Shown here piece by piece: positions 14,986 to 17,334 of a stretch of DNA of 50,619 nt. Under the pieces are notes generated by a model. The model was not told the DNA's origin. It saw only the letters and a list, made by a program, of their open reading frames with translations, and ran no database searches. Position 1 is the stretch's first letter, and each line of letters opens with the position of its first letter. Both the position numbers and the translations under genes were made by a program. Origin of the DNA: an uncultured Pseudomonadota bacterium (GTDB taxonomy: Bacteria > Pseudomonadota > Gammaproteobacteria > Methylococcales > Methylomonadaceae); NCBI GenBank assembly GCA_903847275.1, contig CAINDC010000100.1:1-50619 (forward strand), written 5' to 3'.

Positions 14986-15537
14986 ATGAAGTATAGAAAT
15001 TATTTGATTATGTTATTACTCGCATCTTCGCCACAACTACACGCCGAAGATGGCAAAGATTTATTTCTCGCCGCAATGAATGGTAATGAAGGACGTGTGA
15101 TTACTTTATTGAATCAAGGCATAGACGTAAATAGTAAAAATGCAGGTGGACGAACGGCGTTAATGGCTGCGTGTTTTAGTGGTAATTTGCATAGCATAAA
15201 AACGTTGTTAGCTTATGGTGCAGATGTAAATACCACTGACAACGTTGGTACGACAGCGTTAATGGACGCATTGATTTTTGGTGATGAAGATATTATTAAT
15301 TTGCTGATTAAAGCTGGCTCAAATGTAAATGCTCAAGATGCACAACAAGTACCTCTGTTAGAGCGTGCGAAAAAAATCAGCACTGAAAGTATTGTGAAAC
15401 TTTTAGAAGCTAATGGCGCGAAAGGTGCCGAACCACCAAAACCCCCTGAACCCACAGCTGAAGAAATTGCAGCTAAAAAAGCGGCTGAAGAAGCGGCTGC
15501 CGCTGCCGAATCTGAAAAGCCGAAGAAAAAACGTTAA
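14986..15537 (+). CDS. Exported ankyrin-repeat protein
   Basis: Signal peptide followed by ankyrin repeats (GGRTALMAACFSGNLHSIKTLLAYGADVNTTDNVGTTALMDAL); Ala/Glu/Lys-rich C-terminus. Confidence 0.85.
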   Translation: MKYRNYLIMLLLASSPQLHAEDGKDLFLAAMNGNEGRVITLLNQGIDVNSKNAGGRTALMAACFSGNLHSIKTLLAYGADVNTTDNVGTTALMDALIFGDEDIINLLIKAGSNVNAQDAQQVPLLERAKKISTESIVKLLEANGAKGAEPPKPPEPTAEEIAAKKAAEEAAAAAESEKPKKKR

Positions 15538-15552
15538 GCGGAGATAAGACAA

Positions 15553-15999
15553 ATGCGGATACACATTATTGGCGTGGGGACGACATTTATGAGTGGATTA
15601 GCTTTGTTGGCACGACAAGCAGGTCATGACGTAACAGGTTCAGATAGTTGTATTACTCCTGATATTCGCCGTAAATTAGAGGCAGCGGGGATTCAATTAA
15701 AAGAACCTTTTAGCATTAAAAATTTAGAAAGTAATCCAGACTTAATCGTTATTGGAAATGAATTATACCCAGGTAATATTGAATTACTTGAAGCGCGTCA
15801 TCGTGCGTTACCTTATGTTTCAGGTGCGTTGTGGTTAGAAGAGTATGTATTGCATGATAAATGGTCAGAAACAGGAACAGATATTATGAAAGATGTTCAA
15901 AAATCCGCTGCGAAAAAAGACCTTTCACCAAAACCAGCCAAGCGCGCACCTAAATTGCATGAGCTTGATGCCAAATCAAAACAACGGATTTTGCGATAA
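15553..15999 (+). CDS. Stand-alone Mur ligase N-terminal domain (Mpl paralog without ATPase or C-terminal domains)
   Basis: MRIHIIGVGTTFMSGLALLARQAGHDVTGSD...VSGALWLEEYVLHDKW aligns with the start of the downstream Mpl, then diverges just before the position of its GTHGKTT P-loop. Confidence 0.85.
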   Translation: MRIHIIGVGTTFMSGLALLARQAGHDVTGSDSCITPDIRRKLEAAGIQLKEPFSIKNLESNPDLIVIGNELYPGNIELLEARHRALPYVSGALWLEEYVLHDKWSETGTDIMKDVQKSAAKKDLSPKPAKRAPKLHELDAKSKQRILR

Positions 16000-16002
16000 T
16001 TT

Positions 16003-17334
16003 ATGCGTATTCATATTCTAGGTATTTGCGGCACATTTATGGCGGGTTTAGCGGTGCTTGCTAAACAGTTGGGACATGAAGTTAGCGGTTCTGATCAAAA
16101 TGTCTATCCTCCAATGAGTGATCAACTTATTACCCAAGGTATTACGCTTAAAGAAGGATATTGTGCTGAAAATTTAGATGTTCCCGATTTAGTCATTATT
16201 GGCAATGCGTTATCGCGCGGAAATGCAGAAGTCGAAGCGGTATTAAATCGTGGGCTACGTTACACCAGTGGCGCACAATGGTTAGCTGAAAATGTGTTGC
16301 AAGATAAGTGGGTTTTAGCGGTTGCAGGGACGCATGGTAAAACGACGACGAGTAGTATGGTTGCGTGGATTTTAGAAGCAAATGGATTTAATCCGAGCTT
16401 TTTAATTGGCGGTATTCCGTTGAATTTTGGTGTGTCAGCACGGCTAACAGATTCTAATTTTTTTGTGATTGAAGCTGATGAATATGACGCAGCATTTTTT
16501 GATAAGCGATCAAAGTTTGTCCATTACCACCCACGCACCGCTATTTTGAATAATTTAGAATATGACCACGCAGATATTTTTCCTGATTTAGCCGCTATTC
16601 AAAAACAGTTTCATTATTTTGTCCGCACTGTACCAAGTGAAGGTTTATTGATTGCGCCAGAAGGTGATTTAGCGTTAGAAGAAACGTTGGCATTGGGGTG
16701 CTGGACACCTGTTTCTTATACCAGCATTTTAGGTGAAGGCAGTTGGAATGCGGATTTATTAACCTCAGATGGCAGCCATTTCGGTGTATATTTTGGCGTT
16801 CATCATCAAGGCGAAGTACATTGGCATTTGACGGGCGAACACAATGTACGAAATGCTTTAGCGGCAATGGCGGCAGCGCATCATGTTGGAATTTTGCCGC
16901 ATAATGCGATTAGCGTGTTATCAAATTTCCAAAATGTGAAACGTAGAATGGAAGTCTTAGCATCGAAAAATGGGGTGACAATTTACGACGATTTCGCGCA
17001 TCATCCAACGGCAATAGCAACTACGTTAGATGGTTTGCGACAACGAGTAGGTGGTGAAAAAATTATTGCAATTGTTGAACCGCGTTCCAATACTATGCGC
17101 TTGGGAATACATCAGCATACGTTAGCGGCTTCATTACGCGCTGCTGACATAGCAATTATCTATCAGCCTGAATCGCACAGCACAATGACATTGGCGAGTA
17201 ATACCGTAGTTTGTCAAACGTTGACAGATATTGTGACGAGGGTTCGCAATGAAATTCAACACGGATGTCATATTGTTTTGATGAGTAATGGTAGCTTTGG
17301 TGGACTGTCTTCGCTTTTGATAACAACGCTTTAA
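16003..17334 (+). CDS. mpl: UDP-N-acetylmuramate:L-alanyl-gamma-D-glutamyl-meso-diaminopimelate ligase
   Basis: MRIHILGICGTFMAGLAVLAKQLGHEVSGSD, AGTHGKTTTSSMVAWIL, EADEYDAAFFDKRSKFVHY, DDFAHHPTAI, VEPRSNTMRLG. Confidence 0.96.
   Translation: MRIHILGICGTFMAGLAVLAKQLGHEVSGSDQNVYPPMSDQLITQGITLKEGYCAENLDVPDLVIIGNALSRGNAEVEAVLNRGLRYTSGAQWLAENVLQDKWVLAVAGTHGKTTTSSMVAWILEANGFNPSFLIGGIPLNFGVSARLTDSNFFVIEADEYDAAFFDKRSKFVHYHPRTAILNNLEYDHADIFPDLAAIQKQFHYFVRTVPSEGLLIAPEGDLALEETLALGCWTPVSYTSILGEGSWNADLLTSDGSHFGVYFGVHHQGEVHWHLTGEHNVRNALAAMAAAHHVGILPHNAISVLSNFQNVKRRMEVLASKNGVTIYDDFAHHPTAIATTLDGLRQRVGGEKIIAIVEPRSNTMRLGIHQHTLAASLRAADIAIIYQPESHSTMTLASNTVVCQTLTDIVTRVRNEIQHGCHIVLMSNGSFGGLSSLLITTL

Follow-up and report, generated by a model that had tools for sequence, protein, structure and literature searches.

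A stand-alone Mur-ligase N-domain protein encoded beside mpl in a genus of uncultured Methylococcales

The analysis of a 50,619-nucleotide stretch of DNA from an uncultured member of the Methylomonadaceae (the window) established that a short gene directly upstream of mpl encodes an old, selected, domain-only protein of single origin, which lacks the catalytic domains of Mpl. Mur ligases are normally three-domain enzymes, and a free N-domain kept beside its parent is a new variation on them. A literature search of partial coverage returned no description of a free-standing Mur-ligase N-domain. The case is also a clean natural example of a partial duplication that gave rise to a separate non-catalytic protein. 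Our best guess for the role of this paralogue, held at a probability of about 40%, is a neofunctionalised, translationally coupled, non-catalytic accessory protein that modulates Mpl.

The gene and its product

The features of the region were as follows.

14986 to 15537, forward strand: ankyrin-repeat protein (ank), first gene of the ank-paralogue-mpl string (Pfam ankyrin models)
15534 to 15549, forward strand: leader segment with a GGAG ribosome-binding site before the paralogue (predicted anti-SD pairing)
15553 to 15864, forward strand: stand-alone Mur-ligase N-domain, residues 1-104 (PF01225, 52% identity to Mpl 1-103, AlphaFold, Foldseek, omega 0.127)
15865 to 15999, forward strand: C-terminal tail, residues 105-148, and stop codon (low pLDDT, basic pI, omega 0.377)
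16003 to 17334, forward strand: mpl, encoding the intact UDP-MurNAc:tripeptide ligase from which the domain was presumably duplicated (642 bits with TIGR01081, cut-off 388.7)

The open reading frame at 15553-15999 on the forward strand starts with ATG, ends with TAA at 15997-15999 and encodes 148 amino acids. Only three nucleotides (TTT) separate this stop codon from the ATG of mpl at 16003, and the initial annotation was correct in describing an intact frame and start with mpl beginning 3 nt downstream. In BLASTP the product was identical to the adjoining Mpl at 54 of 104 positions (52%, E=4e-33, Mpl residues 1-103). The similarity ended at DKW, just ahead of VLAVAGTHGKTT in Mpl, which agrees with the earlier description of a product tracking the N-terminal 105 or so residues of Mpl. 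The only Pfam domain found was PF01225 on residues 2-99, with 56.1 bits against a gathering cut-off of 21. The NCBIfam mpl model (TIGR01081) matched only at its positions 1-104 of 448 and scored 100.5 bits, short of the full-length cut-off of 388.7. Neither the ATP-binding GTHGKT motif nor the middle and C-terminal domains of Mur ligases were present, as judged by Pfam and BLASTP. By PF01225 score and by fold the paralogue is a member of the Mur-ligase N-domain superfamily. Judged from its sequence it is not an Mpl enzyme, as it falls short in length, in catalytic domains and in ligand-site residues.

Beyond the domain boundary the Lys/Pro-rich tail described earlier was found again. It consists of a helix extension followed by a basic Lys/Pro segment with an ending resembling K-x-K-Q-R-I-x-R. 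The tail of the window copy contains 12 Lys and Arg and 6 Asp and Glu residues (pI 10.1), and the tails of all 16 orthologues are basic, with pI values of 9.5-12. The ank product carries a signal-peptide-like N-terminal stretch and a Lys-rich end, and in several genera its gene has either the paralogue or mpl as a neighbour.

Occurrence and loss

An intact short orthologue was present directly upstream of mpl in 16 of the 18 genomes of the genus. The 15 orthologues besides the window copy had an open frame and identities of 36-86%, and their start, position and C-terminal end were preserved. The gene is therefore not a recent broken duplicate but a retained domain, as the initial annotation had proposed, and it is syntenic with mpl. 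Genome G017, which is 72% complete, gave no match at all. Genome G005 (97% complete) had no intact copy, and a frameshifted and deleted remnant was found beside an intact mpl. This remnant lies between ank and mpl at L038:3460-3644. Its first 45 nt matched the paralogues with a score of 49, while shuffled sequences reached at most 33 and mpl at most 27. A 2-nt insertion after codon 5 shifts the frame, and a large deletion and a shortened remainder follow. The paralogue-like 45 nt indicate that the gene was once present in G005 and was then lost. Since mpl is intact there, Mpl is not strictly dependent on the paralogue.

In a search of 237 genomes of the family the paralogues scored at least 190 bits and topped the list, and among the matches listed short orthologues were confined to the genus. 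No intact stand-alone copy occurred among the matches listed for the 219 other family genomes, which were mpl-sized open reading frames or truncated mpl genes. Short mpl-like frames in G021, G522, G455 and G456 were rejected as paralogues because all of them run into contig ends, and a short frame in G622 proved to be a frameshifted mpl. A third match in G598 was also rejected; stretch L066, the one examined there, carries a single full-length mpl. A class-wide sample of 369 genomes contained no further short match among the matches listed, and no homologue was found in the viral contigs searched. The genome of the window itself yielded three matches. Two are the paralogue and mpl; the third is weaker, has an open frame 485 codons long, and from its size and score we infer it to be MurC.

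Origin of the paralogue

When the N-domains were placed in a tree, the paralogues from the 16 genomes grouped as one clade (100/100) apart from all Mpl N-domains; the 105 columns of the alignment did not resolve the exact branching point of this clade. Relations within it broadly tracked the Mpl tree (pairs G000/G004, G002/G015 and G010/G011; group G006/12/13/16), as expected under vertical descent. Several genomes of other genera had ank directly upstream of mpl with nothing paralogue-like between the two genes, which indicates that the copy was inserted into a pre-existing ank-mpl pair. Where the ank-mpl gap of other genera was testable, no paralogue remnant scored above shuffled sequences. 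The common ancestry and conservation of the paralogues are evident from these data. We infer the duplication event itself, for which a duplicated 5' end of mpl would be the simplest source. In the Mpl tree the stem branch of the genus was long (0.47) compared with most other family lineages, and it coincides with the presence of the paralogue.

Structure and ligand pocket

Residues 1-100 were well modelled by AlphaFold, most of them with a pLDDT of about 95. A helix spanned residues 91-116, and the tail was poorly predicted (pLDDT about 46-57) and is probably disordered. The first and second Foldseek hits for the model were 3hn7 and 3eag, both of them Mpl structures, at an rmsd of 1.1-1.3 Å. 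In Mpl the ligand region comprises the loop GI(C/G)GTFM, Asp31 at the diphosphate and Ala32, Tyr53 and Met71 at the uracil, and the Mpl-conserved ligand-site residues include Tyr35, Asn69, Arg73 and Gly74 (PMC3060825).

The pockets of the 16 paralogues were compared with those of Mpl N-domains from the genus, the family and the class, in which the compared positions were 97-100% conserved. Phe12, Met13 and Asp31 were kept in all 16 paralogues and Gly7 in 94%, and Asn69 (69%) and Gly74 (25%) were partly kept. Gly10, Tyr35, Tyr53 and Arg73 occurred in none of them; position 10 was Thr in 94% and position 53 was Phe in 100%. Ser39, which is invariant in Mpl, was replaced by Arg in all 16 paralogues, so that Arg39 and Phe53 are paralogue-specific invariants. 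These substitutions suggest that the fold was kept and that the Mpl-type UDP-MurNAc pocket was not. The label of a UDP-sugar-binding domain given in the initial annotation is doubtful as worded because these four Mpl-conserved residues are substituted in every copy, although Asp31 is retained. Another ligand, or UDP held through altered contacts, could still be a candidate for binding.

Such binding is the core of the alternative that survives best, which we nevertheless regard as rather unlikely. The paralogue would be an independent sensor of a nucleotide or nucleotide sugar, its remodelled pocket would bind a different ligand, its basic tail would contact RNA, DNA or a membrane, and mpl would be a mere neighbour. 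The retention of Asp31 and of the fold residues, the new pocket residues Thr10, Arg39 and Phe53, two of them invariant, and the conserved basic tail are consistent with a sensor, whereas the loss of Gly10, Tyr35, Tyr53 and Arg73 weakens the claim that UDP-MurNAc is what it binds.

Gene order, translation and selection

The order ank - paralogue - mpl was found in 16 of 16 genomes, with 11-26 nt between ank and the paralogue. In the window the predicted anti-SD pairing was -6.6 kcal/mol at the start of the paralogue versus -3.3 kcal/mol at that of mpl, and across the 16 genomes the paralogue starts ranged from -3.7 to -11.9 kcal/mol. In 12 of the genomes mpl began 2-3 nt past the stop codon of the paralogue and had weak or no SD pairing (-3.8 to +2.2). 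The other four had a gap of 12-15 nt and an mpl with a strong SD (-6.8). The short gap and weak mpl SD in the 12 genomes make translational coupling of the paralogue and mpl likely in most species.

A co-translational helper is a further explanation, which we consider doubtful. The protein would mimic the N-domain of Mpl during folding or dimer assembly of the enzyme and would have a structural or chaperone role, not a regulatory one. The Mpl homologues studied are dimers in solution (PMC3060825), and the probable co-translation with Mpl fits such a role, as does the SGxxWLxE segment by the boundary of the N-domain and middle domain, which is among the best-kept parts of the paralogue. The conservation of fold residues accounts equally well for this segment, however, and Mpl elsewhere in the family manages without such a helper.

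In codon models on the Mpl tree the N-domain of the paralogue had an omega of 0.127 and the tail one of 0.377, compared with 0.048 for the N-domain of Mpl and 0.064 for the rest of the enzyme; these IQ-TREE values are rough in absolute terms because the codon tree, with a length of about 17, may be saturated and the tail alignment is uncertain. By omega the paralogue domain evolved about 2.6 times faster than Mpl's own N-domain. With omega fixed at 1 (kappa 2) the lnL of the domain fell from -3616.4 to -3888.6 and that of the tail from -1624.1 to -1645.4. The paralogue is under purifying selection that is more relaxed than in Mpl. Absence or disruption in all relatives and a dN/dS near 1 had been named beforehand as the marks of a decaying copy; neither was observed, the N-domain omega being 0.13.

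The same data make it improbable that the frame is only a translational leader, on which ribosomes finishing the short gene re-initiate at mpl and so set the dosage of Mpl, with a protein product of little weight. The short distance of 2-3 nt and the weak SD of mpl, seen in 12 of 16 genomes, fit this explanation, but such a role needs neither amino-acid conservation over 104 residues nor paralogue-specific invariants. Moreover, the four species with a strong mpl SD still keep the protein, and in G005, where the protein is lost, mpl is still intact and its SD is weak. A slowly decaying, functionless duplicate is very improbable and is accepted for G005 alone, since the pseudogene there and the faster evolution than in Mpl are outweighed for the genus by the low omega and by the other copies with open frame, start, position and C-terminal end intact.

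Proposed function

A link between the role of the paralogue and Mpl is probable, given the descent of the paralogue from an enzyme with dimeric homologues and the fact that the two are encoded, and probably translated, together. From the operon context and the coupling, the earlier suggestion that the protein regulates or partners Mpl is plausible; the operon position could also be a mere relic of tandem duplication. For the accessory protein that we favour, the following course may be proposed. A tandem duplication in the ancestor of the genus would have placed a copy of roughly 105 codons from the 5' end of mpl between ank and mpl, and this copy would have gained a short basic tail. Since then selection has preserved the copy as a protein of its own, which is non-catalytic and retains the Rossmann-like N-domain fold but has a remodelled Mpl-type ligand pocket. 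The paralogue and Mpl belong to one gene string and are probably made together. The domain may dock on Mpl, which is dimeric in the studied homologues, in the role of accessory subunit or of decoy N-domain and may thereby modulate the opening, assembly or activity of the enzyme, while the cationic tail would help to place the complex. An in-silico fold of a read-through paralogue-Mpl fusion was of low confidence (pLDDT 50.7, pTM 0.34) and gave no usable model.

AmpG was found in 17 of the 18 genomes of the genus, which makes muropeptide recycling via Mpl plausible. Two AmpG-family genes above the cut-off were present in G010 and G014, and one in the other genus members with a match. A search of the 18 genomes with PF02016 found no LdcA-type Peptidase_S66; in this genus another enzyme may carry out the LD-carboxypeptidase step of recycling. 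A bolder version of the proposal, in which a duplicated substrate-binding domain with a remodelled pocket serves as a genus-specific regulatory subunit of Mpl, senses another metabolite and adjusts peptidoglycan recycling accordingly, is speculative and we think it unlikely. The paralogue is a testable candidate for the control of peptidoglycan recycling in methanotrophs, and the natural loss in G005 offers a comparison point.

Comparison with known Mur-ligase systems

The closest known relative is the N-domain of Mpl (TIGR01081; 3hn7, 3eag). The paralogue shares with it the fold, 52% identity to its neighbour, the frame of the GxxxTFM loop and the residues Asp31, Asn75, Gly91 and Trp94. Unlike Mpl, it is free-standing, has a basic tail of its own, lacks the ATP-binding middle and the C-terminal domains, and has Gly10, Tyr35, Tyr53 and Arg73 replaced. 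The N-domain of MurC (1p3d, 2f00, 9ir6) has the same Rossmann-like fold but is more distant, the paralogue scoring 53.6 bits with TIGR01082 versus 100.5 bits with the mpl model, and the catalytic domains of MurC are absent from the paralogue. MurT of the MurT/GatD pair, a possible parallel, is related to the Mur ligases and functions together with a partner whose gene adjoins its own. MurT keeps the middle and C-terminal domains of the Mur ligases, whereas the paralogue is the N-domain alone.
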